From: Oscillospiraceae bacterium
GTDB taxonomy: Bacteria > Bacillota > Clostridia > Oscillospirales > Oscillospiraceae
Assembly (NCBI GenBank): GCA_017437095.1
Contig: JAFSBW010000073.1
Coordinates: 1 to 34,935, forward strand
Direction: 5' to 3'
DNA: 34,935 nt
Below, in pieces: positions 23,248 to 34,845 of this stretch. Made by a program: the position numbers and the translations under genes. Under the pieces are notes generated by a model. It saw only the letters and a list, made by a program, of their open reading frames with translations. It ran no database searches and was not told where the DNA came from. The number at the start of each line of letters is the position of its first letter. Position 1 is the stretch's first letter.

Positions 23248-23655
23248 ATGATTCATTTGATTATGGGCCTGAAGGGCTCCGGCAAGACCAAGAAGCTGCT
23301 TGCCTCTATTTCCGACGCAGTTGCCACCTCCAAGGGCAGCGTTGTTTGCATCGAGTACGGTGCAGATCTTACTTACGGCCTGTCTCACAAGGTTCGCCTT
23401 GTCAACTCCAAGGAGTACGGCATTTCCAACGCCGATATGCTCAAGGGCTTTGTTAGCGGCCTGCACGCCGGTAACTATGACATTACCCATGTGTACGTAG
23501 ACAACCTGTACAAGACCATTGGCAACGACAAGGCCGCCGGTGAAGATTTCATTCTCTGGGCTGCTGATTTTGCCAAGGCCAACGATATGGAGATCACCAT
23601 TTCCGTATCTCAGGATCCCGCCGAAGTCAGCGACGCTGTTAAGGCTTTTCTGTAA
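23248..23655 (+). CDS. Small P-loop NTP-binding protein of unknown role
   Basis: 135-residue soluble protein beginning MIHLIMGLKGSGKTKKL. Walker A GLKGSGKT is at 7-14, and HVYVDN (81-86) looks like a Walker B strand ending in aspartate. The fold would be a minimal RecA/thymidine-kinase-like P-loop domain; there is no substrate-lid cysteine cluster as in thymidine kinase. It has a good promoter, a very strong ribosome binding site and its own terminator, suggesting high constitutive expression. I do not recognise a characterised family. Neighbours give no clue beyond lying next to pgi. Confidence 0.88.
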   Translation: MIHLIMGLKGSGKTKKLLASISDAVATSKGSVVCIEYGADLTYGLSHKVRLVNSKEYGISNADMLKGFVSGLHAGNYDITHVYVDNLYKTIGNDKAAGEDFILWAADFAKANDMEITISVSQDPAEVSDAVKAFL

Positions 23656-23880: not shown

Positions 23881-23997
23881 CATCTCCCAAGGGGCGGTGA
23901 TTTTTGGAAAGCCCTCTCCGTCACCGCCTTTGACGGCGCCACCTCTCCCAAGGGGAGAGGCAAAGGGTGCGGGCAAAATTTGTAATTTTAAATTATT
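23881..23997. repeat. Composite hairpin repeat in the convergent gap
   Basis: GGCGGTGA (23893-23900) pairs with TCACCGCC (23921-23928), and CCTCTCCC (23942-23949) with GGGAGAGG (23953-23960). It ends in an AT-rich tail (TTTGTAATTTTAAATTA) like the ATTACAAA family at 27935 and 34905. It follows the C39 gene on the minus strand and may end its transcript, although a clean U-tract is missing. Confidence 0.55.
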
Positions 23998-24946
23998 GCT
24001 GCTGTTTGGGGGTAAAAACCCACATATTGCGGATGGCGTTTTCGATCTCGTCGTAGGTGCAGCCCTCGGCGCTCAGCGCCCGGGAGTTGGGGTCGTTTAC
24101 GGTAATGCGGCCGTTTTCGTAGCCGGTAAGCACGATATAGTGGCCGTTGTAGGTAAACTTACACTCCTTCAGGTGGACGATCACCGGGGTGCCCGCCTTT
24201 AGGTAGCGGGTAAGCACGCCCTCGTCCAGAGGCACACGCTTAACGGTAAAGCCCAGCTTTTCGCCGCCCTGGTCAAACAGGTACCATTCCGTGCCGCCGG
24301 TGCGCTTGCCGTTTTCGTCGATCTCATTGCCGATATAGTTGTTCTCCTCGGCAAATTTCATCATATAGTCCGGGGTGTAGGTGGGATCCTTGGTGTAGTA
24401 GTATACCACCATGGAAAGGCAAGTAGGGCCGCAGCCGGTAATGCCGCCCAGGCCGTAGGCATACTTGGTATAGCCCCAGCGGTCGTCCCACTGCATAAAC
24501 AGCGGCACACCCTCTACATTTTCAAACTCGGACATATCCTTTTCGTGGGTCTTGTTATACTCCAGAGGGGCTCTCAGGATAAAATCCCGGGCCTCGGGGC
24601 TTTTTTCGTAGGCATCGTAGAGCTTTTCGGGGTAGTAGTCAAAGCCCATCTGGTAGTCTTCCACCGTAAGGCCGTGGGCCGCGGCATAATCCGCAATGGC
24701 CTGCTCGCCCAGGGGCAGCGTAGGGCCGGGAGAGGTGGTATTCAGGGGATCAACGGTCTGACCCGGCAGGCCGGAGGGGGTAGTAATGGGGGGCGTAGTG
24801 CCGCCCAGGATGGGCTTGCCCGGCTTCTTGGCGGGCTTGAGCTGATTCCACAGCAGAGTAGAAAGCAGCACCACCAAGCCGATGATCACAGCCATTTCCA
24901 AAAACATTCCGGCCATGGAGACCGATTTTTTTCTTCTTTGTGCCAT
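23993..24946 (-). CDS. Membrane-anchored C39-like cysteine peptidase
   Basis: 317 residues. A basic N-terminus and one membrane segment (about 12-33) place the rest outside the cell; a Pro/Thr-rich stalk (about 38-80) follows. Residues about 143-317 form a peptidase C39-like (papain-fold) domain: Cys172 in GITGCGPTCLSM, His269 in YNGHYIVLTGY and Asn284/Asp285 in VNDPNSR match the Cys-His-Asp/Asn triad. Single-domain C39-like proteins are widespread in Clostridia and their substrates are mostly unknown. It has its own promoter inside the end of the upstream GTPase gene, so it may or may not belong functionally to the GTPase cluster. GGAG lies upstream of the ATG. Confidence 0.9.
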   Translation of the reverse strand: MAQRRKKSVSMAGMFLEMAVIIGLVVLLSTLLWNQLKPAKKPGKPILGGTTPPITTPSGLPGQTVDPLNTTSPGPTLPLGEQAIADYAAAHGLTVEDYQMGFDYYPEKLYDAYEKSPEARDFILRAPLEYNKTHEKDMSEFENVEGVPLFMQWDDRWGYTKYAYGLGGITGCGPTCLSMVVYYYTKDPTYTPDYMMKFAEENNYIGNEIDENGKRTGGTEWYLFDQGGEKLGFTVKRVPLDEGVLTRYLKAGTPVIVHLKECKFTYNGHYIVLTGYENGRITVNDPNSRALSAEGCTYDEIENAIRNMWVFTPKQQQ

Positions 24947-24984
24947 TGTTTGCTCCTTTGCGCCGTAAGCTTCAAATTTCGGCT

Positions 24985-25013
24985 ATTATACCACAGCCGC
25001 CGCTATGGGTCAA
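24985..25013 (-). promoter_or_regulatory. Promoter of the C39 peptidase gene
   Basis: Minus strand: TTGACC (25008-25013), 17 bp, TATAAT (24985-24990). The TGA stop codon of the upstream GTPase gene (25010-25012) lies inside the -35 box. Confidence 0.88.
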
Positions 25014-27874
25014 GTGCTGCGCAGGCTCTCGCGCACAGAGTCCAGCAGGAACTTGCGGTTGTTGATATCGTCCACATCCATTTGCAGGCGGCTGAGCTTT
25101 TCCTCGATCTCCCGCTTGCGCTCGTCCTCCCGGGCAATGCGCAGGGCTACCTGATCCCGGTAGGCGATGACATACTGCTCCAGGTTGCCCTTCAGGCCAA
25201 CGCGGGTCATATTGCTGTAGCGGGTAAATTCCTCCATGGTATCCCGGCGCACCCGGTTGAAGTAGTTGCGCAGCACCTCGCCCAGCCGGTCCAAAGTAAC
25301 TCTGGCTCTGGTTTTATCCACGCTGCCCCAAAGCTTGCTCTTGCCGTAGGTAAGCTCCTGGGTAAGGCTCTGCAGCCCATCCTCCAGCTCTGCCATAGAC
25401 ATCTGCTTGGGGGCCATAGAGGGCATTTCTACCTGGGACATATCGATGCTGAGGATGCGCAGGCTGTCATAAAGCCCGGCAAATTCCTTTTGGAACACTT
25501 CCAGTTCCTTGGTCATAGCGCTTTGCACCTGGGGGTCAAATTCCCCCACCAGGGCATGGATGCTCTGGGCCTGGGCAGTGCAGTCGGCGGCAAGGCCGGT
25601 GCGCAGATAGCCCTCCAGGGCGTTGGCGCTGTAGCTTCTTGCCTTCATAAGCACCGTGCCGATGGCTTGCTGCACCCGGAAATTCATAGCCGCCGCCAGC
25701 TGCTGGCCAATGTCGTTTGCGGTGGCGGTAAAGCTTTCCAGCCGCTGGGGGGTCTGCTCATCTACAAAGCTTTGCAGATCCACATGGCTGCTGCGCTCCA
25801 GCATTTGCAGCTCCTGCTCCCACTCCTGGGAGATGGCCTGGATCTGCCGCTGAACAGCCTCATACATGCCGTCGATCAGCTCCAGCATCTTGCCGGTTTG
25901 CACCAGGGAGCGCTGCCGGGCGGTATGCTGGCGGATGTACTGCTCGCTCTTTTGGGAGATCTGCAGGCTCTTGCGGTCGCCCTTGGCAAACTCGTTTTCG
26001 CTGAAGGTGCCTACCACCTCGGCGGAGAAATAGGGCAGCACCAGGGGTTTTTCTACCCCAAAGGCGGTAATGATCTTATTGCGGATATAGGTAAGCATCT
26101 TCGCCCGCTCCTGGGCGGGGATCAGATCCAGCTTGGTAACCACAAATACGCACTTATCCAGCACATTTTCCAGATTGTCCTGCACAAAGCGGCAGAAGCT
26201 GTCGGTCAAAGGCCGGGTGCCATTAACCAGCAGAATAGAAAGGTCGGAGAAATTGTGGATAGCCCGCTGGGTCACGGTTTCGTGCCATTCGGTGGTGGCG
26301 CTGGTACCGGGGGTATCGATAATGCGCAGGCCGCTGTCCATAAGATTTTTGGAGGGCAGAGTAACCCGCACGCAATCCAGATCCTGGGCCTCCCGGTTTT
26401 CCGTAACCATACGGTTCAGGCATTCCCGAAGCTGATGGAAGCTATCCAGCTTCACCAGGGTCTGGCTGCCGTCCCGGTTGCGGGTAGCTACTACGAAGCT
26501 CTTGCCGTACTCAATGATGGTAGAAGCTACTGTAGTGCCCTGAATAGAGCCGCAGTCCAGCAGGTCGCTGCGCAGCAATGCGTTGATAAAGGTAGATTTA
26601 CCCGCGCTAAATTCGCCCACTACGGACACATTCAGCTTTTTGTCCTTCTGCCGGGCAGTAATGGCGTCCAAGCGGCGGCTCAGGCCGTCGTAGACCTCCT
26701 GGGGCCACTGGTAGCGCTCCAGCAGCTCCCGGGCATACTGGGTATGCTCGCCGATGCCGGTAAGGTTATCCAGATTGGCGCTGGAGAAATATTTATCGTC
26801 GGAAAGCTGCGCCTGGGCTTCTTCCTCTTCTTCGATGCGGGGCAGGGTCAGGCCGCCCTCCAAAGTAAGGGCATCCGCCGCGGGAGGCTTCAGGGAAGAC
26901 TCCTGCTCCTTTAGGGCTTCTTCGGCATCGTCCTGGGCGGGAGGCTCCTGGGCAGAAGGCTCCTCTGCGGGGATTTCCCGGGCAAGGGCTTCTTGGGCAG
27001 GAATTTCCAGCGCGGGAGCTTCGGGAGCTTCTTCGGCGGGGATTTCCTCAGCAGGTGTTTCTTCGGCGGGGATCTCTTCCGCCGGCAGCTGCTCAGCCGC
27101 ATCCGCTTCCTCCGGCTGGCTTTGCCCCAGGGCATCGATGCGCTCTCTCAGCCGCTCCATATCCGCCTGGATGACCCCCTGCAGGCAGGAGCGGGCAGAG
27201 AGGAAAAACCGCTCCATGTGAAATTCCAGCCCCTGGGCAAGATTATGCACATAAACACGGCACTGGGTCTGCTGATTCAGCGGAAGCATATCCATGCCGT
27301 TTACGATCAGGGCAATGTCTTTTTTCCCCATAGGCAGCACCACCTGCCGCAGGAAATTCAGCTCCCGGGGATTCAGCGGGCTCATTACATGGGTAACAAA
27401 AAGGATCTTATCGGCCCATTCTATCGCCGCGCGCAGCTTCTTCATATCCATATTCTGGTACAAAAAGCCCTGCACATCCAAATATTCCACGCCGCCAAGG
27501 GCCTTGGCATCGGTGCGGATGCACAGCCGTTCTACCGGAGTTTGGCCCCACTGCACCCGTTTCTGGCCCCTGGGCAAAGCCATCATGCGGGGCAGCTGAT
27601 CCAGCGCCACCATCATAGGCACCGGGCCCTGGGTACGCAAATGCTCCAGCACATCCGCCCCAACGGGCAATGCGCCGGCGGGGGGCGTTTGGTCAAAGCG
27701 CAGGTGGGCAAAGGTGCCGACAGAGGGGCCTTGGGCAAGATGCACCTGCAGCCCCGGCACGCCGGGGCCTGGCAGCCGGGTAGGGATCACCTCAGCACCC
27801 GCCAGGGCGTTTACCAGGGTAGTTTTGCCGCTTCCCTGGGCGCCTATTACCAAAATATGGGCATTTTCTTTCAT
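25010..27874 (-). CDS. Tandem-G-domain dynamin-like GTPase (GTPase C)
   Basis: 954-residue protein with two GTPase domains. The first (about 1-245): G1 GAQGSGKTT (11-19), G3-like DVQG (133-136), G4-like NGMD (192-195). An acidic, Pro/Ala-rich linker of repeated PAEE[IT] motifs spans about 255-335. The second (about 395-640) is the dynamin-type domain: G1 GEFSAGKST (420-428), G3 DTPG (520-523), G4 TKLD (580-583). A helical, coiled-coil-rich stalk with many Gln/Leu heptads follows to the end, as in bacterial dynamin-like proteins; no clear membrane helix. I start at MKENAHILVIG with GAGG upstream; the frame opens earlier (27934). It is third of three consecutive GTPase genes. Likely membrane remodelling; function unproven. 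Confidence 0.9.
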   Translation of the reverse strand: MKENAHILVIGAQGSGKTTLVNALAGAEVIPTRLPGPGVPGLQVHLAQGPSVGTFAHLRFDQTPPAGALPVGADVLEHLRTQGPVPMMVALDQLPRMMALPRGQKRVQWGQTPVERLCIRTDAKALGGVEYLDVQGFLYQNMDMKKLRAAIEWADKILFVTHVMSPLNPRELNFLRQVVLPMGKKDIALIVNGMDMLPLNQQTQCRVYVHNLAQGLEFHMERFFLSARSCLQGVIQADMERLRERIDALGQSQPEEADAAEQLPAEEIPAEETPAEEIPAEEAPEAPALEIPAQEALAREIPAEEPSAQEPPAQDDAEEALKEQESSLKPPAADALTLEGGLTLPRIEEEEEAQAQLSDDKYFSSANLDNLTGIGEHTQYARELLERYQWPQEVYDGLSRRLDAITARQKDKKLNVSVVGEFSAGKSTFINALLRSDLLDCGSIQGTTVASTIIEYGKSFVVATRNRDGSQTLVKLDSFHQLRECLNRMVTENREAQDLDCVRVTLPSKNLMDSGLRIIDTPGTSATTEWHETVTQRAIHNFSDLSILLVNGTRPLTDSFCRFVQDNLENVLDKCVFVVTKLDLIPAQERAKMLTYIRNKIITAFGVEKPLVLPYFSAEVVGTFSENEFAKGDRKSLQISQKSEQYIRQHTARQRSLVQTGKMLELIDGMYEAVQRQIQAISQEWEQELQMLERSSHVDLQSFVDEQTPQRLESFTATANDIGQQLAAAMNFRVQQAIGTVLMKARSYSANALEGYLRTGLAADCTAQAQSIHALVGEFDPQVQSAMTKELEVFQKEFAGLYDSLRILSIDMSQVEMPSMAPKQMSMAELEDGLQSLTQELTYGKSKLWGSVDKTRARVTLDRLGEVLRNYFNRVRRDTMEEFTRYSNMTRVGLKGNLEQYVIAYRDQVALRIAREDERKREIEEKLSRLQMDVDDINNRKFLLDSVRESLRST

Positions 27875-27934
27875 AAAAGCCTCTTTCCGGGGCGCATTTG
27901 CCCCCAAGGGATGGGAAGGAAGGATCATTTGCAA

Positions 27935-28012
27935 ATTACAAATTATAAATTACAAATGATAAATTAGGGCGCGGTGGGATTTATATCCACGGGCGATCGC
28001 AGAGCGCCCTGG
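27935..28012. repeat. ATTACAAA-rich tail plus hairpin between GTPases B and C
   Basis: 27935-27966 is a run of imperfect ATTACAAA/ATTATAAA repeats. Next to it AGGGCGC (27966-27972) pairs with GCGCCCT (28004-28010), enclosing GTGG/CCAC and the palindrome GCGATCGC (27993-28000). On the minus strand the hairpin comes first and the T-rich tail second, so it could act as a partial terminator between the GTPase genes. Confidence 0.55.
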
Positions 28013-28013
28013 G

Positions 28014-30035
28014 TCAATCCACCAGCTGCATGATCAGCCCATCGAGCCGGCTGTTAAGCTTCAAAATATCGTTTTGGGTCTTTTGCAGGATCTCCCGGCT
28101 GGCCCGCAGGGCTTCCTGCCCCTGCTCCAGCTCTGCTACGATGGCAGCAAGCTGGGTATCGGTTTCCCGGATCTGCTGCTCCAGCTTGCCGGTAACGCTG
28201 TCGGCCAGCTCCTGCAGCCAAGCGCAGGCCCGGTTGGTCATGGCTTCCGTCAGCTTGGGGGACTGGAGCTGGATCTGCTCCAAAATCTGCTCCTGCATGG
28301 ATGCCTTCAGCTTCTTGGCCGAGCCCTGCTGTCCGGCTACCCAGCCAAACAGCACCGAGCCGATCACCGCCGCGGCCAGCGCCACGGGAGCAGCCAGGCT
28401 CAACGTGCCCAGCAGCACGCCGGCGCCCACATCCCGGCCGGATTTGCGGGACACCGCCACCGCCAGGGCCTGGGTATCCTCCAGCTGGGTAAGCTCTGTA
28501 GTAGAAGCAGTGGTCTCCCGCAGCAGGCGCTGCCAGCCGGATTCGCTGCCGCCGCGGCTCTGTGCGCCGGAAACATCCTCACGGATGGTCTGCATCTGGG
28601 CCAAAAGGGCATCCACATCCTCTTCTACCTGGGAGAATATCTCTTTTACCCGCCGCTCCATCTCCGGCACATACTTTTCGTTGCGCCAGGTAAGCTGGTA
28701 GCTTTCCATCTGGCGGGAAATATGGTCGGAAAGCTCGTTGATCAGCGATTGCACCCGCTGCTTATTGGGCACAAGGCCCAGCTTTCCGGTAAACTCATAC
28801 TGCTCGATCCAAACCGGCACCTGCTCGCTCAGGCGGCGCAGATAATCGCCGATGAGCCTGCGGATCTGGATGCGGCTGCTCTCGATGCCCACATTCAGGC
28901 GGCTTTTCAGCTGATCCTTCTGGCTGATCTGGGCGGCCAGCTTGGGCCGGGCCTGCTCATAGCGGGCCTTTACCTCTTCCAAAGAGGACGAGAGCATCTT
29001 TTTGCGCTCCGGCAGCACCTGCAGCAGCGCTTCCTCCGCCAGAATATGGCGCAGCTCCTTGGCGTTTTGGGCCAGCTTGGCCTTGCCCTTGTTGCCGGTA
29101 AGGTATTTGCTCAGGCGCATCTCAAAGGCGGGCACGCCGGAAGCTTTGAGCATGGCGGCGTTGCGCTGGCGCTTACCGTTCAGGGCCATAAGGCCGGATA
29201 TGTAATAGATGCCGCTTTCGCCAAAGGTGGTGCAGTTTGCCAGCTTCATGGTAGCATAGCGGCGGATCATGGGCTTTTCCCGCTCGGGGATGCAGTCAAA
29301 GCGGTTTACCACAAAGAAAGTATCCTCAAAGCCCTGGGGGATCATATTATTTTCAATAAAGCTCATTTCCTCCTGGGAGCAAAGAGCCTGGGCATTCATA
29401 ACAAACAGCACGGCATCGGCCTTGCTTAAATACTCGGTAGTAACCCGGGTACGGGTAGCATGCTCGTTCAGGCCGGGAGAATCGATGATCTCCACGCCCT
29501 GCTCCAGCAGCATCAGCGGCCAGAACAGCTCCACCTTCTCGTAGGGGCTTTCCAGCAGCATCTGCCGGGGGTCTTCGCCCATAGGGATCACCACATAGTC
29601 CTCGATCTGGCTGTAGGGGATCTCCATAGGGGGTACATTTTGCATATTATACTTTTTCATATGGGCCAAAGTGGCCTGGGGAATGGAGGTAGGCAGCGTT
29701 TCCGGCAGGGGGTTGCGGAAATGCAGCACCGCCCGCTTGGTTTTGCCGAACTTCACCTCGTTGATCACCGCGGTGCAGGGCAGGCTGTAGGCCGGAAGCA
29801 CATCTTCACCCAAAATGGAGTTGATAAAGGTAGACTTGCCGTTTTTGAAAGTGCCTACTACCTGGATCTTAAAAGTGTCGCTTTGCGCCTTCTGGGCCAT
29901 TCGTTTTAAATCGTCCCGGCGGCGCAGCATGCCCAGGTTTTCGATCACCTGGGCAGAAGCCGCCAGAAGCTTGGCAAACTCCTGCTGTTGCTGCTGGTGC
30001 AGCTTATAAGGATCGCAATAGCTCAACCCTGCCAT
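28014..30035 (-). CDS. Dynamin-like GTPase (GTPase B)
   Basis: 673 residues starting MAGLSYCDPY, with GGAAG upstream. A helical N-terminus (Gln-rich, 13-55) leads to the G domain: G1 GTFKNGKST (61-69), G3 DSPG (185-188), G4 NRFD (244-247). A long helical stalk follows. A hydrophobic stretch at about 550-580 (GAGVLLGTLSLAAPVALAAA and on) looks like a membrane-inserting hairpin or paddle. The last 80 residues are coiled coil, ending in SRLDGLIMQLVD. This is the layout of bacterial dynamin-like proteins, which bind and reshape or fuse membranes, often as hetero-oligomers of neighbouring gene products. Second of three GTPase genes in a row. Confidence 0.92.
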   Translation of the reverse strand: MAGLSYCDPYKLHQQQQQEFAKLLAASAQVIENLGMLRRRDDLKRMAQKAQSDTFKIQVVGTFKNGKSTFINSILGEDVLPAYSLPCTAVINEVKFGKTKRAVLHFRNPLPETLPTSIPQATLAHMKKYNMQNVPPMEIPYSQIEDYVVIPMGEDPRQMLLESPYEKVELFWPLMLLEQGVEIIDSPGLNEHATRTRVTTEYLSKADAVLFVMNAQALCSQEEMSFIENNMIPQGFEDTFFVVNRFDCIPEREKPMIRRYATMKLANCTTFGESGIYYISGLMALNGKRQRNAAMLKASGVPAFEMRLSKYLTGNKGKAKLAQNAKELRHILAEEALLQVLPERKKMLSSSLEEVKARYEQARPKLAAQISQKDQLKSRLNVGIESSRIQIRRLIGDYLRRLSEQVPVWIEQYEFTGKLGLVPNKQRVQSLINELSDHISRQMESYQLTWRNEKYVPEMERRVKEIFSQVEEDVDALLAQMQTIREDVSGAQSRGGSESGWQRLLRETTASTTELTQLEDTQALAVAVSRKSGRDVGAGVLLGTLSLAAPVALAAAVIGSVLFGWVAGQQGSAKKLKASMQEQILEQIQLQSPKLTEAMTNRACAWLQELADSVTGKLEQQIRETDTQLAAIVAELEQGQEALRASREILQKTQNDILKLNSRLDGLIMQLVD

Positions 30036-30058
30036 AAGGATCTTCCTTTCTTGGTAAC

Positions 30059-30079
30059 AGGGAGGCACACGGCCTCCCT
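30059..30079. repeat. Hairpin in the GTPase A-B gap
   Basis: AGGGAGGC and GCCTCCCT pair perfectly (8 bp) around ACACG. It lies in the leader between GTPases A and B, beside palindromic repeat copy 3. There is no U-tract. Confidence 0.5.
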
Positions 30080-30095
30080 AAAAGATGAGAATCGG

Positions 30096-30180
30096 AGTTT
30101 TAGAGTGAAGATTTAGGAGTGAAGATTGAAGATTTCGGCATCTCAACTGTTCAATCTTCACTCTAAAATCTCTAATTTGG
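30096..30180. repeat. GAAGATTGAAGAT palindromic repeat, copy 3
   Basis: TTTTAGAGTGAAGAT (30098-30112) pairs perfectly with ATCTTCACTCTAAAA (30154-30168); inside, GAAGATTGAA (30121-30130) pairs with TTCAATCTTC (30150-30159). The core is nearly identical to copy 1 (about 55 nt). It lies between two GTPase genes of one operon. Confidence 0.72.
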
Positions 30181-30187
30181 TAATTGC

Positions 30188-31972
30188 TTAAGCCATGGCT
30201 GTTTGGATGGCCTGGCGCAGGGCTTCCAGCCGCTGCACCGTATCTGCCGCGGCCAGCTGAGCCTGGGGCTGCTGATTCTGCCGCGCAGCTTCCAGCGCCT
30301 GATTCTGCTCCCGCAGCCAGGCATTCTGTCGCTCTTCCGATGCGCGCAGAATATCCGCATACACCGCCGCCAGGCGGGTGCGGGTCTTACCCATGGCCTC
30401 GCCCACCGTTCTGGGCACCTGCAGCTCGATGGCCTTGGCCACTACCTCCTGCTGCTTCTGCACCTGGGCCTTGAAGAATTTCTCCGTAAGCAGGGCAGAG
30501 CCGGTGCCTACACCGGAGGTACACAAAATATTGAACATGCCCAGGCCCATGGTGCTCAGGGTCAGGCTGCCGATGATGGTAAGGGCTGTGGTAGCAATGC
30601 GGGAAAGGTTGCGCTTGCTGTCCAGATCCTCCAGCTTCAGCTCGTCCTCCTCCACCTGGCCGAACATTTCCTTATCCGCCACCGGGCCACGGGCTACCGC
30701 GCCAATGCCGGTATGGAAGCTTTTATCCAGCTGGGCGTTGAGCCAGCGCAGGTCTTCATTGATCTGCTTGCCTGCCAGGGCATCCAGAGAAGCTGCCATG
30801 CCGGCCAGCTCCAGGCGCAGCCGGTAGCCAAACTCCTGCCGCCACCAAGTAGCCGGCTGGCTGTTTCGGCTGACCTCATGGCTAAGCCGCTGCACCGTAT
30901 TTTCTTTCATTTCTTCTGCTTTTTCCAGCACCGCGGCCACGCACTTATCCTGCCGCTCTTCCATCTGCCGGTGCAGCTCCTGCCAATGCTTTTCCAGCTT
31001 CTTCAGCTGCTCCCGCTTGGCATCCAGCGCCTGGGCGCGCTTGTCGGCATCCAGCTCCAGCAGCCGAAGCTGCTCACCCAGGCCCTGCTGGGCCGTAAGC
31101 AGCACATCGTCTACCTTGGCCAGCACCCAGCGTTCCGTCAGCGCCCGGCGCTTAGGGTCGGAAACCCAGGAAGCAATGTGGCTGCGCAGCTTGTCGATGC
31201 CTACAAAGGCCTGCAGCTCGCTGCTGCCCACATCCACATCCCCGGCGACGATCACCGGGATATCCATCTTCCAAAGGGCAAGCTTATTGCGGATAAATTG
31301 GATCATTGCCCCGCGCTGGTTGGCGGGCACTTCGTCCAGCTTGGTAACCGCCAGCACCATAAAGGGGGTCTTGCGGGTGATCAGCCGCTGCTGGATAAAC
31401 TGCTGCTCGCTCATGCTCATAGGGTTCAGAGCGCTGATGGCAATGATGGCGCCGTCAGCCTCCATAAGGGCATCGCTGATCTTCTGGGCCCGCTTTTCTT
31501 CCAGATCGCCTGCTCCGGGGGTATCCAAAAGCTCCATGCTCAGGCTTTCCAGCCAGGGGTTTTTGATGCTCATAAACACCGCGCCCTGGGGGTCCGGCCC
31601 GCCGAAGTTGTTGGCTACCAGCCCTTCCCAGCTCTCCGGCCTTATGGGCAGAGCCTGGCCCCGCCTGCCCTGGGCATCCACATATACCATGCCCTCCCGG
31701 GCGCCGGCGCGGATGCGGGTAAGCATAGCGGTAGTAGGCATATTGCCAACGGGCAGAACAGGCCGCTCCAGCAGGCGGTTGATCAGGGTAGACTTGCCCC
31801 GGCTGAACTCTCCCACCACGGCCACGGTAAAGCGGCTGCGGCCCAGCTCACGCTCCAAAAGATCCAGCTTTTGGGCCAGCTCCGGCTTGTTCATTTCCAG
31901 CAGCAGCCGCCGGGCAGCCCCAATGGCAGAGCTTGCCCGGGACTGGGTGCGATTACCTCTGCGTTGCTCCAT
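30188..31972 (-). CDS. Dynamin-like GTPase (GTPase A)
   Basis: 594 residues. A helical N-terminus leads to the G domain: G1 GEFSRGKST (54-62), PTTA in the switch I region (79-82), G3 DTPG (150-153), G4 TKLD (210-213). The stalk (about 275-450) is strongly helical. A hydrophobic pair of segments (about 457-495, including IATTALTIIGSLTLSTMGLG) probably inserts in the membrane. A C-terminal coiled coil follows (500-594). GAGGAG lies 7 nt before the ATG, overlapping the stop of the upstream gene, so it is translationally coupled to the 177-residue protein. First of three GTPases; lengths and membrane segments differ among them, as expected for a hetero-oligomer. Confidence 0.92.
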   Translation of the reverse strand: MEQRRGNRTQSRASSAIGAARRLLLEMNKPELAQKLDLLERELGRSRFTVAVVGEFSRGKSTLINRLLERPVLPVGNMPTTAMLTRIRAGAREGMVYVDAQGRRGQALPIRPESWEGLVANNFGGPDPQGAVFMSIKNPWLESLSMELLDTPGAGDLEEKRAQKISDALMEADGAIIAISALNPMSMSEQQFIQQRLITRKTPFMVLAVTKLDEVPANQRGAMIQFIRNKLALWKMDIPVIVAGDVDVGSSELQAFVGIDKLRSHIASWVSDPKRRALTERWVLAKVDDVLLTAQQGLGEQLRLLELDADKRAQALDAKREQLKKLEKHWQELHRQMEERQDKCVAAVLEKAEEMKENTVQRLSHEVSRNSQPATWWRQEFGYRLRLELAGMAASLDALAGKQINEDLRWLNAQLDKSFHTGIGAVARGPVADKEMFGQVEEDELKLEDLDSKRNLSRIATTALTIIGSLTLSTMGLGMFNILCTSGVGTGSALLTEKFFKAQVQKQQEVVAKAIELQVPRTVGEAMGKTRTRLAAVYADILRASEERQNAWLREQNQALEAARQNQQPQAQLAAADTVQRLEALRQAIQTAMA

Positions 31973-31982
31973 AGCTTACTCC

Positions 31983-32516
31983 TCAGCCCAGGAATTTATC
32001 GCAGAAATTGCTGTCAAGGGCCTGATAGATAGGCTTCTGGCAGGGCTCAGCCAGCCGGGAAAGAAGCTCAGCCATGGCCTTTACAGCATCCTCGGCAGGC
32101 TCTTGGCCCGCGATCAGGCTGGCCAGCACGGCATCGTAAGCGGCGTACAGCTCCTCCTTGGCGGCCTGATACTCCTGCTTGGAAAGCTCCTTAATGGCAT
32201 CGTGGCGGAAAAGGCCGATGGGCTTGTTAAAATCCACCTGGCGGAAGCGGCTGTCGGCAGCCAGATCCTGGAAAGAAACGATCCGGCCGGTAGGAAGCTC
32301 GGCGGTAACGGTATAGCGGATGGGGAAAACCAGGGTCTTATCCACCTCGCCGGTAACCTTGAAGCGCAGGAAGGGGATCACCAGATATACCTTGCCGTTT
32401 ACCCGGTGGAACATAGGATAGCCGTCGGTATAGCCCATAGGCATCTGGCAGGCGTTTACAAACTCGCTGCAGCGGATTTCCCGGAGCAGGTCTTTTACAG
32501 AAATGCTGTTATTCAT
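31983..32516 (-). CDS. 177-residue protein of unknown family in the GTPase operon
   Basis: The start MNNSISVKDLL (32516) is preferred because GGAGG ends 6 nt upstream; an ATG at 32520-32522 touches that site. Residues about 30-110 look beta-rich (GKVYLVIPFLRFKVTG, TLVFPIRYTVTAELPTGRIVSF) and the rest helical (SKQEYQAAKEELYAAYDAVLASLIA), with the short motif CQKPIYQAL near the end. No signal peptide or membrane segment. I recognise no family. It lies 12 bp after the calcium-repeat peptidase gene and directly before GTPase A, so it is part of the same transcript; an adaptor role is possible. Confidence 0.85.
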   Translation of the reverse strand: MNNSISVKDLLREIRCSEFVNACQMPMGYTDGYPMFHRVNGKVYLVIPFLRFKVTGEVDKTLVFPIRYTVTAELPTGRIVSFQDLAADSRFRQVDFNKPIGLFRHDAIKELSKQEYQAAKEELYAAYDAVLASLIAGQEPAEDAVKAMAELLSRLAEPCQKPIYQALDSNFCDKFLG

Positions 32517-32528
32517 ATCCATCCTCCA

Positions 32529-34760
32529 TTAGTTGGTGTCGTAGCACTCGATCATCATGTTGTTGCCGTCTTCCCAGGCATCCATAAAGACTTCCAGGGG
32601 GATCTCTACGCCCTGGCCGTTGGGAGTGCCGGAATCGTTGAGGATCACTACGGGATTGTCCGGGTCGCTCAGGTCAAGGCCAATGACCTCAACGGCGTGG
32701 TTGACGCTGTCACCGGGAACATAAATATCGTCATTTTCGGCATACCACATTTCATCGGCATCCAGCGCTACGATGATGCGGCCGCCCTGCTCCAGACATT
32801 GCTGGATATCTTCCATATCGTTGTTGTAGGAAAGCTCGTTTTCAATGCCGTAGTAGTCCAGCATCTTGTTCATGTGGCTCAGAGGTGTGCCGTTGCGCTC
32901 GCTGAACCATCCCTTGCTCTCGGCATAGTCGGCAAATTCCTCCATGTCGATCTCATGGTCGGTAAACTCTTCGATGACGAACATCTGGGAATACAGGGCG
33001 CAGCGCATGGTGTTGCCCTGATGCTCCCACTCCCGCATGGCATCGTCAGGATCGCCGATCACGCCCTCCTTGTCAGAATCCCGGGGGTCAAAGTTTTCCA
33101 GATTTTGGTAGTAAGTACCCTTGCTGTCGTTTTCCTCGTAATATTTTTCGTAGTCAAACTCCAGCTCTTCCAGCTCTACCTCGGGGGCTTGCTCCTGGAA
33201 GCTGGGCACCCAGGGATTCAGCCGGTCGGTAGAGCTGCGGTTCAGGTCGCCGTCGCCGTCGGTATCGATAGCGCTGTATTCAAAGCGGCCGTCGCCGTCA
33301 AAATCCCGGTGCATCACATCGATGTCGCCGTCGCCGTCCAGATCCCGCAGGGCGATCTCAGCCTTGCCGTCGCCGTTGGCGTCCACCATCAGGGTATCGT
33401 CCTTGCCGTCGCCGTCGGTATCTACGCCCCGGGTCTCAAAAATGCCGTCGCCGTCCTTGTCAGCCAGCATGGTATCGTACTTGCCGTCGCCGTCGGTATC
33501 CCGCAGGAGCACATCCTCCCTGCGGTCGTTGAAATAATGGATCTTCTGATCCTCCAGGCCTTCCTGGGCCTTGCTGCCATCGGTCAGCTCAAATTCGCCG
33601 TCGCCATCGGTGTCCATAGCGGTAATATCCGCTACGCCGTCGCCATCGGTATCGGCGGTCATCACCAGGCCCTCAGCGCCTTCATAAACGGTGGTTTCAA
33701 AGTAGCCGTCGCCGTCGGTATCCATAAATGCCCGGTCCGCCTCGCCGTCGCCGTCGGTATCCATAGCGATAGAATCTACCACGCCGTCGCCATCGGTATC
33801 CATATGGTATACATCAAAAATGCCGTCGCCGTCCAGATCCTGGGCTTCGGTATCCACAAAGCCGTCGCCGTTGCTGTCCAGCAGGTTTACATCGATGTAG
33901 CCGTCATCATCCTTGTCCAGGCCCAGGTCGCCGGAGCCGTCGTAGCGCAGCCAGGTATTGCGGTCGGTATAGCCGTCACCATCGGTATCTATAGAGGCGG
34001 TGTCAAAGCGGCCGTCGGCGTTGGTATCCTCGGTAACGGTGTCGAAGGCGCCGTCTTTGTCAGAGTCGGAGTAAATGGTATCCATACGGCCGTCGCCGTC
34101 GGTATCGGCGATGATGGATTCGTAGTAGTTATCGCCGTCGCTGTCCAGGAACATTTCGGCAAACACCTGGTCAGGCTCGGTCTGGCGGTAGGCCTCTTCC
34201 ATCTGGGCGTCGCCGTCAAAATTCAGCCAGGTGGTATCCAGCTTTCCGTCGCCGTCGGTGTCGGCGTGGATCAGCTCGTGGATGCCGTCGCCGTCGTTGT
34301 CCAGCTTCAGGGTATCATAAGCGCCGTCATAGTTGGTATCCTGGAGAACGCGGTCAAAGCCCATGGTATCATCCGTATCCTCCATGAGCATATCGTATAC
34401 GCCGTCCCGGTTGACATCGGCCTGGGCAACATCGTAAACATTGTCCCCATCGGAGTCCATCAAGAGCATGTCCACCATGCCATCGGCATCGGTATCTATC
34501 TCCTGATAGTCCCAGATGCCGTCGCCGTTCAGGTCTGCTACGATGGTTTCAAAATAATTGTCCCCATCGCTGTCCAGCAGAGTTTCCATCACGCCGTCGC
34601 CATTGGTGTCGGAGAGCAGATAATCCGCCACGCCGTCGTTGTTCTGGTCTACCAGGTAGCTGTCGGCAATGCCGTCGCCGTCGGTATCCGCCAGCTGGCC
34701 GTAGCTGTCCTTAACGCCGTCGCCGTCGGTATCCAGGTTGAATCGGTCAAACAAATCCAT
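32529..34760 (-). CDS. Calcium-binding-repeat protein with C-terminal C39-like peptidase domain
   Basis: 743 residues from MDLFDRFNLD (AAAAGGAG ends 9 nt upstream; an ATG two codons earlier is 3 nt from that site). Residues about 8-520 are about 35 units of a 13-residue repeat of the form DxDGDGxxDxxxx, the acidic loop seen in EF-hand, dockerin and thrombospondin type 3 calcium sites. Two or three breaks interrupt the periodicity. An acidic linker follows (about 530-580), then a papain/C39-like domain with Cys587 (NTMRCALYSQ), His688 (DSVNHAVEVIGLD) and Asn708/Asp709 (ILNDSGTPNG). There is no signal peptide or membrane segment, so by sequence the protein is cytoplasmic. It is the first gene of the dynamin-like operon, under a consensus promoter. 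Confidence 0.9.
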   Translation of the reverse strand: MDLFDRFNLDTDGDGVKDSYGQLADTDGDGIADSYLVDQNNDGVADYLLSDTNGDGVMETLLDSDGDNYFETIVADLNGDGIWDYQEIDTDADGMVDMLLMDSDGDNVYDVAQADVNRDGVYDMLMEDTDDTMGFDRVLQDTNYDGAYDTLKLDNDGDGIHELIHADTDGDGKLDTTWLNFDGDAQMEEAYRQTEPDQVFAEMFLDSDGDNYYESIIADTDGDGRMDTIYSDSDKDGAFDTVTEDTNADGRFDTASIDTDGDGYTDRNTWLRYDGSGDLGLDKDDDGYIDVNLLDSNGDGFVDTEAQDLDGDGIFDVYHMDTDGDGVVDSIAMDTDGDGEADRAFMDTDGDGYFETTVYEGAEGLVMTADTDGDGVADITAMDTDGDGEFELTDGSKAQEGLEDQKIHYFNDRREDVLLRDTDGDGKYDTMLADKDGDGIFETRGVDTDGDGKDDTLMVDANGDGKAEIALRDLDGDGDIDVMHRDFDGDGRFEYSAIDTDGDGDLNRSSTDRLNPWVPSFQEQAPEVELEELEFDYEKYYEENDSKGTYYQNLENFDPRDSDKEGVIGDPDDAMREWEHQGNTMRCALYSQMFVIEEFTDHEIDMEEFADYAESKGWFSERNGTPLSHMNKMLDYYGIENELSYNNDMEDIQQCLEQGGRIIVALDADEMWYAENDDIYVPGDSVNHAVEVIGLDLSDPDNPVVILNDSGTPNGQGVEIPLEVFMDAWEDGNNMMIECYDTN
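33225..34745. repeat. 39-bp coding tandem repeats
   Basis: The DNA encoding the DxDGDG units repeats with a 39-bp period; the core on the plus strand is close to GCCGTCGCCGTCGGTATC and recurs dozens of times. Copies have diverged between the cores, so this is an old but probably still slippage-prone repeat. Confidence 0.85.
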
Positions 34761-34816
34761 ATTCATACGCTCCTTTTCGGGGCAAAGCCCATTTATTTCA
34801 GGATATAACACATTAC

Positions 34817-34845
34817 ATTATAACTTTTTCGCCATTTATTGTCAA
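34817..34845 (-). promoter_or_regulatory. Perfect consensus promoter of the dynamin-like operon
   Basis: Minus strand: TTGACA (34840-34845), 17 bp, TATAAT (34817-34822). The leader is about 50 nt with a small GGGC/GCCC hairpin before the AAAAGGAG site. No operator-like repeat is evident, which suggests steady expression. Confidence 0.92.

Follow-up and report, generated by a model that had tools for sequence, protein, structure and literature searches.

A recurrent bacterial gene set that couples a peptidase with calcium-loop-like repeats to an unannotated protein family and dynamin-like proteins

Introduction

How bacteria detect and repair holes in their membranes is largely an open issue, and dynamin-like proteins (DLPs) are suspected of taking part. 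The question is raised anew by a locus in a stretch of 34,935 nucleotides from an Oscillospiraceae bacterium (GenBank assembly GCA_017437095.1, contig JAFSBW010000073.1, positions 1 to 34,935), referred to as the window throughout. Between positions 25010 and 34766, its minus strand carries a five-gene operon that encodes a repeat protein with a C39-type peptidase domain (C39rep), a small protein (P179) and three DLPs (D1, D2 and D3). Do these genes belong together, and if so, what might a peptidase do for dynamins? A first-pass annotation, made from the window sequence alone, had proposed that they form a system in which the repeat protein senses calcium entering through a damaged membrane and the GTPases seal the lesion.

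By comparing gene neighbourhoods, protein profiles and trees across several bacterial lineages, we find a genetic link between C39rep, P179 and groups of two or three DLPs, the members of a group being for the most part inherited together. The conserved set is almost certainly a real system, and it very probably acts on membranes through its DLPs. That the peptidase regulates the DLPs, by cutting or by binding them, is a reading towards which we lean only slightly.

Results

The first-pass annotation had described five same-strand genes behind one consensus promoter, and this layout holds position by position.

34817 to 34845, minus strand: sigma-70-type operon promoter, TTGACA-17-TATAAT, matching the consensus at 12 of 12 positions with a 17-base spacer
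32529 to 34766 (or start at 34760), minus strand: C39rep, repeat array plus C39-type peptidase domain, 743 to 745 residues, with no hydrophobic signal or transmembrane segment
33219 to 34733, minus strand: array of 32 calcium-loop-like repeats DxDGDGxxD within C39rep, with a period of mostly 13 residues
32529 to 33077, minus strand: C39-type papain-like peptidase domain of C39rep with a Gln-Cys-His-Asn/Asp set, from profile and alignment
31983 to 32522, minus strand: P179, 179 residues, a family with no Pfam match over cut-off
30188 to 31972, minus strand: D1, DLP of 594 residues (PF00350, E 5e-20)
28014 to 30035 (or 30068), minus strand: D2, DLP of 673 residues, or 684 from a GTG at 30068 (PF00350, E 1.7e-29)
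25010 to 27874 (or 27934), minus strand: D3, DLP of 954 residues (PF00350, E 2.4e-31)

From base composition, about 0.001 promoters with this match and spacing are expected in the stretch. The gaps along the operon measure 6, 10, 119 to 152 and 79 to 139 bases, the last two varying with the start codon. For C39rep, AAGGAG precedes the ATGs at 34766 and 34760, and a GTG at 34811 sits at about the expected transcription start. The second protein, P179, had been given two residues too few, at 177.

Does this arrangement occur elsewhere? The set was searched for by its peptidase alone in overlapping samples of 291 genomes of the class, 295 of the order, 70 of the family of genome G619, 244 cyanobacteria and 150 of the window's own family. 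Matches with E <1e-30 were taken as strong, and weaker ones (1e-10 to 1e-3) were not counted. Strong matches were found in 12 distinct genomes, the window's (G000) included, and 11 of these loci are readable, the contig of G592 ending right after the gene. The first-pass annotation had proposed comparing gene neighbourhoods, and in this comparison two or three DLPs stand beside the C39 gene in eight of the 11 (G000, G675, G935, G619, G970 of Dolichospermum, and the cyanobacteria G1081, G1125 and G1161). Scattered homologues, or a repeat protein that is always separate, had been named beforehand as speaking against a system, and neither is what is seen.

The order C39rep-P179-DLP-DLP-DLP recurs in G935 and G675, and G619, which belongs to another family, has Hsp70-C39rep-P179-DLP-(235-aa protein)-DLP. 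A gene set like that of G619 is present on Anabaena pANA01 and in Dolichospermum, with two GTPases and, separating Hsp70 from C39rep, two unknown proteins that are paralogues; one of the two Anabaena GTPases scores over the cut-off of the DO-GTPase model and the other below it. In G1081, G1125 and G1161 the order is DLP-C39-DLP-DLP, and all nine DLPs pass PF00350. On four of the five Rhodococcus plasmids examined, a repeat gene and a C39 gene lie within 12 kb of sequence that also holds Hsp70 and two DLPs, one of the latter being annotated as a GTPase and passing PF00350 in R. qingshengii; RHA1 pRHL3, the weakest match, has none of these neighbours. Plasmid records with a relative of the peptidase number 28, namely 15 from Rhodococcus, 12 from Prescottella and one from Anabaena. 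Hsp70 thus lies beside DLPs in G619, Anabaena and Rhodococcus, and none is found within 20 kb around the G675 locus. In G619, G592 and G036, a LytTR gene precedes the C39 or C39-like gene. The repeated order and these related sets bear out the proposal that the genes form a system.

Could the genes be chance neighbours, unrelated and merely found together in the window? Three of the 11 C39 loci (G975, G1183 and G1274) have no DLP in the fetched flanks and some DLP sets have no C39 gene, as such an explanation would allow, yet the association is repeated in several settings. At the DLP density of the window genome, a DLP within 10 kb in at least seven of the ten other loci has a chance of 7e-9, a value that treats related loci as independent, which they are not. 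Among the 150 family genomes, at least four, the window's included, carry DLPs at E <=1e-9 (22 candidates scored per genome); three carry C39 and two are shared between these and the four DLP carriers, with a chance of 0.0016, or 0.04 without the window genome. Moreover, all 13 DLPs above 50 bits in G000, G675, G935, G619 and G036 lie within the locus. Mere coincidence can hardly account for this.

All three window DLPs score above the cut-off of Dynamin_N (PF00350), as expected of three different dynamin-like GTPases, and DLP calls agree with this model for the clostridial loci, Anabaena, the nine cyanobacterial DLPs and the one Rhodococcus GTPase. The G-domain motifs (P-loop, DTPG/DSPG and TKxD-type) are found in D1, in D2 (as NRFD) and in the main domain of D3. 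Four G domains had been counted; three pass the cut-off, and the fourth, N-terminal in D3, has a P-loop but no DTPG/DSPG and reaches 24.9 bits against a cut-off of 27. This extra domain and a long Glu/Ala/Pro-rich linker (26700 to 27874) are not seen in the G935 counterpart of D3, which has a hydrophobic segment that the window D3 lacks. The highest 19-residue hydropathy means are 1.58 for D1, 2.28 for D2 and 1.05 for D3, with a strongly hydrophobic segment of D2 near residue 540.

In a tree of 34 DLP rows, each of the three window DLPs falls into a different clade. Clade D1 unites the window, G935, G675 and the three cyanobacteria (support 99/98), and clades D2 and D3 each unite the window, G935, G036 and the three cyanobacteria (100/99 and 100/98). 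D1, D2 and D3 are a trio kept together across the window, a second family and cyanobacteria. Two further clades, A (99/97), joining G619 and Anabaena with Rhodococcus, and B (100/100), joining G619, Anabaena and two Rhodococcus, mark what we call type II loci, which also carry Hsp70; this pair is common to three lineages.

P179 has no Pfam match over cut-off and none in NCBIfam, PADLOC or PHROGs, and its best PDB matches (E 0.013) are unrelated proteins. A sub-threshold TipAS match of the window protein (E 0.0011, 19.9 against 23.8 bits) appears in no other of the eight members scanned, and this kinship was not built upon. Members occur in seven loci, those of the window, G935, G675, G619 and Anabaena/Dolichospermum and, more weakly, G036 (E 9e-7) and G1274 (E 6e-5); in seven of seven, the gene lies directly 3' of the C39 or C39-like gene. 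A search of 299 genomes of the phylum returned the window's own copy only, and one of 384 genomes of the order returned this copy, that of G675 and a stop-broken match in G682. A contig-wide genome scan with two rigid patterns confirmed only Dolichospermum, a low count that says little given these patterns, and a similarly pattern-limited scan of viral contigs confirmed no relative.

In G1274, a LytTR regulator and C39 stand with a weak relative of P179, a 621-aa protein (L103 1477-3342) that follows this relative, and a protein akin to the N-terminal part of HerA-type ATPases that is truncated by the contig end. The N-terminus of the 621-aa protein reads like the nucleotide-binding start of an actin or Hsp70, and this identity was dropped because neither PF00012 nor any other Pfam model matches. 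Related HerA-type ATPases (E 1e-188) lie near DLPs in G036 and G702 (L012 11272-14502 and L094 3629-7066), and the G1274 relative (L103 1-1449; E 2e-7 to the HerA N-terminal part) lies near C39, which hints at a sister system with a HerA effector.

What kind of protein is C39rep? Over its C-terminal 182 residues it shares 43% identity with the domain of Anabaena WP_015081674, which is annotated as a C39 family peptidase, and the window protein itself matches no Pfam or NCBIfam peptidase model over cut-off. PF13529 (cut-off 24 bits) is passed by two of the seven relatives tested, those of Anabaena (26.1) and G619 (30.8), and the proteins of G935, G675 and the three cyanobacterial trio loci fall below it at 17.9 to 23.9 bits. 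A profile of ten relatives matched, in the PDB, the C39-like 3erv (E 2e-4), ficin B (9e-4), cathepsin S (0.016) and also Alr0975, in a range up to about 0.03, with Gln and Cys aligned to those of ficin; matches to a designed TIM barrel were taken as chance. Gln, Cys, His and Asp are conserved in 17 of 17 C39 domains, as is Q-x5-C, and the Asn is present in 13 of 17, the four Rhodococcus domains having Ser instead. The G675 domain (L067 10212-10769) nearly reaches PF12385, another papain-like family (18 bits against a cut-off of 19), which supports a papain fold. A papain-type active site in C39rep is therefore plausible on the basis of these alignments.

The rest of C39rep is largely the repeat array. 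Non-overlapping loops were searched with the pattern D-x-[DN]-x-[DN]-[GANHYE], which fixes D1 and allows only D/N at positions 3 and 5. Beyond what the pattern fixes, the window loops have G6 in 29 of 32 and D/E9 in 31 of 32, and 81 of 88 loops over eight arrays from three lineages have an acidic residue at position 9. The counts are 32 in the window, 14 in G935, 9 in G675, 10 in G619, 5 in G592, 2 in Anabaena, and 9 and 7 in two Rhodococcus repeat proteins. Rhodococcus has the loop array and the C39 domain in two adjacent genes, a split of the fused protein (L027 8964-10618 and L069 10949-12606). The window repeats fit the calcium-loop geometry (D1, D/N3, D/N5, G6, D/E9), which we take to be the arrangement of ligands in calcium loops of the dockerin or TSP3 type, and are accordingly predicted to bind calcium. 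With this loop geometry and the putative active site, the DxDGDG-repeat and C39-like character assigned at first pass is supported. Antisense to the repeat gene, on the plus strand (31017 to 34808), runs an open frame of 1263 residues, taken as a by-product of the DxDGDG repeats and not as a gene.

Repeats of the DxDGDG type are usually found on secreted proteins. Here, a simple hydropathy test, which is not a signal-peptide predictor, showed neither a hydrophobic N-terminus nor a membrane segment in any of the 11 loop or C39 proteins examined (19-residue means no higher than 0.95); for the window repeat protein, a hidden signal peptide was rejected, the longest reading (760 residues) having no segment above 0.90. 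An array in the cytosol is unusual and would suit a protein that senses incoming calcium, so as regards location the sensing role proposed at first pass is compatible with the protein. Bacterial intracellular calcium is held at nanomolar levels, according to the part of PMC5615198 consulted.

The loops may have another role, binding calcium or other cations constitutively or forming an acidic scaffold, while the trigger is P179, Hsp70 or the LytTR regulator. Loop number ranges from 0 to 32 among relatives, and the three cyanobacterial loci are complete in peptidase and DLP trio without any loop, both of which favour this explanation. The acidic residue at position 9, which the search leaves free, tells against it, and a separate loop-array gene beside the C39 gene in Rhodococcus fits a regulatory partner. 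On balance, we consider purely structural loops unlikely. Calcium influx as the trigger in the loop-bearing versions is a possibility that we take seriously while still leaning against it.

The distribution of the set raises the question of defence. Spread is patchy, with a P179 relative in 1 of 79 relatives and C39 in 2 of 149 family genomes, the window genome aside, and in Anabaena and Rhodococcus the set sits on plasmids. Hsp70 and a DO-GTPase occur together in the Anabaena cluster, a combination that the consulted part of PMC7159879 describes for conflict systems, and the G036 locus holds a HerA-type ATPase. All three DLPs have matches to the LeoA models in a defence library (E 5e-12 to 5e-20), which DLP kinship alone might explain, and DynA delays phage lysis (PMC8844932, in the part consulted). 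In an anti-phage or anti-plasmid system, the peptidase or P179 would sense a phage-made change and unleash the DLPs or a protease-driven dormancy, so that lysis is blocked or delayed. However, C39rep, P179 and the last C39 gene of the locus are all without a match in PADLOC 2.0.0, no phage record holds a relative of the peptidase, and no defence gene was recognised by reading on the one visible flank. The base composition of the operon lies inside the range of neighbouring and housekeeping genes; if the operon was acquired, the acquisition was not recent or the donor genome was similar. Taken together, we regard a defence role as rather unlikely. A phage origin of the system is not supported either, in view of the peptidase-free phage records and the pattern-limited P179 scan of viral contigs.

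In Anabaena sp. 90 pANA01 (L011 2894-8978; also L014 1237-7333), four proteins, namely Hsp70, a DO-GTPase and the two paralogous unknowns, end in (D/N/E)WF, with a chance of about 1e-11 if they are unrelated, though two are paralogues. This ending may serve all four as a C-terminal tag for docking or cleavage.

The surroundings of the operon add two features and set a limit.

24985 to 25013, minus strand: promoter of the downstream C39 gene, outside the operon, 11 of 12 consensus positions, with TG before the second hexamer
23993 to 24946, minus strand: membrane-anchored C39_2 peptidase (PF13529, E 9e-21) with a hydrophobic N-terminus, a neighbour outside the conserved set

A membrane C39 peptidase does follow the DLPs, as first annotated, but its inclusion in the system was rejected, as it has its own promoter and no such gene was seen downstream of the DLPs in G675 or G935. 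At 23248 to 23655 on the plus strand, after a phosphoglucose isomerase-like gene and convergent to the operon, lies a P-loop-like protein of 135 residues with no assigned family. The remainder of the window is mostly sugar metabolism, as named from reading translations. At the other end, the contig stops at 34935, 90 bases upstream of the operon promoter, so any upstream partners are out of view.

Discussion

How might the parts work together? Most probably the DLPs act jointly on the membrane, in the manner of DLP pairs (PMC6104087), with C39rep as their regulator. In the mechanism that we propose, the three DLPs would join in a single mixed complex able to tether, tubulate or fuse the cell membrane, and C39rep would be the switch of this complex. 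In versions that have loops, such as that of the window, these would be empty at the nanomolar calcium level of a healthy cytoplasm and would fill when a pore or wound admits calcium from outside. Filled loops would fold the array and bring the peptidase to its target, which could be a DLP, P179 or a substrate held by P179, and peptidase action would then start or end DLP assembly at the lesion. In type II loci, Hsp70 may load or recycle the DLPs. Calcium binding, activation, substrate and membrane repair are plausible steps that we infer from sequence. In its broad form, a DLP assembly that is regulated by a peptidase and protects the membrane, the chain seems to us nearly balanced between acceptance and doubt, with doubt a little ahead. 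The specific version, a calpain-like wound response, is more speculative and on present evidence doubtful. In it, a cytosolic, calcium-loop-gated papain-type protease would trigger a three-dynamin sealing machine through a dedicated adaptor, and this modular protease-adaptor core would work with trios of DLPs, with Hsp70-associated DLP pairs and perhaps with HerA-type ATPases, having spread between phyla, partly on plasmids.

Several observations weigh against this proposal. The strongest is the lack of loops in the C39 proteins encoded by the cyanobacterial trio loci G1081, G1125 and G1161; nor are loops seen in those of G975, G1183 and G1274, and calcium therefore cannot be a universal trigger. 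The last three are also the C39 loci with no DLP in view, and since G1274 has a P179 relative as well, the C39-P179 core seems separable from the DLPs. Conversely, the DLP sets of G1336 and G702 have neither C39 nor P179 by profile, and the P179 profile found no member in the cyanobacterial trio loci or in those of Rhodococcus. In G036, DLPs and a relative of P179 are present, but the C39-like protein beside this relative has neither the Cys nor the His and is only weakly akin (12 bits). G675 is a mosaic, with D1 of the trio and with D2 and D3 in another clade, where they pair with two DLPs of G1336. The C39 tree is poorly resolved and not split by DLP type, so parts seem to have been exchanged between loci, and the DLP tree carries program warnings for long branches and uneven composition. 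As a separate observation, the G1336 locus (L093 6768-14170) has three DLPs, two of them sisters of G675 D2 and D3, and represents another DLP set in that family.

The nearest known relatives of the set are DLP operons. The DLP pairs of Nostoc (BDLP1/2), Campylobacter (Cj-DLP1/2) and Streptomyces (DynA/B), together with B. subtilis DynA, resemble it in their adjacent DLP genes and in mixed assemblies that are known or proposed (PMC6104087, in the part consulted). The window set differs in that members of three separate DLP clades stay together and are joined by a peptidase and P179; the main text of that paper contains neither "peptidase" nor "calcium". The cyanobacterial "chaperone group" and Tandem A/B DLPs have a DnaK gene beside DLPs and tandem DLPs (PMC5827413, in the part consulted), to which type II loci add C39rep and, in two of three lineages, P179, while the window has no Hsp70 in view. 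The word "peptidase" is absent from the main text of PMC5827413.

LeoABC is likewise a DLP operon, and the PADLOC LeoA models, which come with no given cut-off, match the window DLPs at 44 to 70 bits. By contrast, the NCBIfam model of LeoA/HP0731 type gives the window DLPs 20.5 to 27.9 bits against a cut-off of 325. To our knowledge, LeoABC has no peptidase. A vesicle or export machine, in which the DLPs bud the membrane and C39rep matures a cargo, would resemble the vesicle release proposed for LeoABC combined with C39 leader cleavage. LeoA has been linked to vesicles (PMC6104087) and C39 domains elsewhere process double-glycine leaders (PMC6363468), both in the parts consulted. However, besides the poor fit to the NCBIfam LeoA model, no exporter or leader-peptide gene common to the loci appeared on reading G619, G675 and G935, where small genes were not searched for, and we consider such a machine improbable.

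DO-GTPase/HSP70 conflict systems (eLife 2020) share with the Anabaena locus an Hsp70 and a DO-GTPase, there beside the set; neither dynamin nor C39 occurs in the main text of PMC7159879, and DO-GTPase2 scores far below cut-off in the window D3 and is not listed for the other window proteins. With C39/papain peptidases (PF13529, PF03412), the window family shares a fold signal and differs in being partly fused or adjacent to calcium loops. Animal calpains are cysteine proteases that carry calcium modules, require calcium at the levels reached in wounds and promote resealing (PMC9970828, in the part consulted). The likeness, a cysteine protease plus a calcium-binding module, is a functional analogy only, as the window loops are of DxDGDG type and not penta-EF-hands, the partners are DLPs and not dysferlin or annexins, and no calpain is among the 35 PDB sequences matched at E <=1. 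The set also hints that calcium-gated proteolysis at wounds arose more than once.

Among the matches listed from open-licence PMC full text, a scope that leaves out most subscription papers and preprints, the set is undescribed, and no open-licence PMC paper names both "dynamin family protein" and "C39 family peptidase". This literature result is no proof of novelty, the nearest prior work, as far as the consulted parts go, being the DnaK-linked or tandem cyanobacterial DLPs (PMC5827413) and the DLP operon pairs (PMC6104087), and on a stricter view the set could be a variation on DLP operons. Its constituent families are known; what appears new, judged from sequence, is the conserved set with its protease-adaptor core, for which a function is here proposed. 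It offers a candidate switch, namely a calcium-loop protease that carries no export signal, together with a candidate adaptor family that has no annotation and a defined DLP trio.

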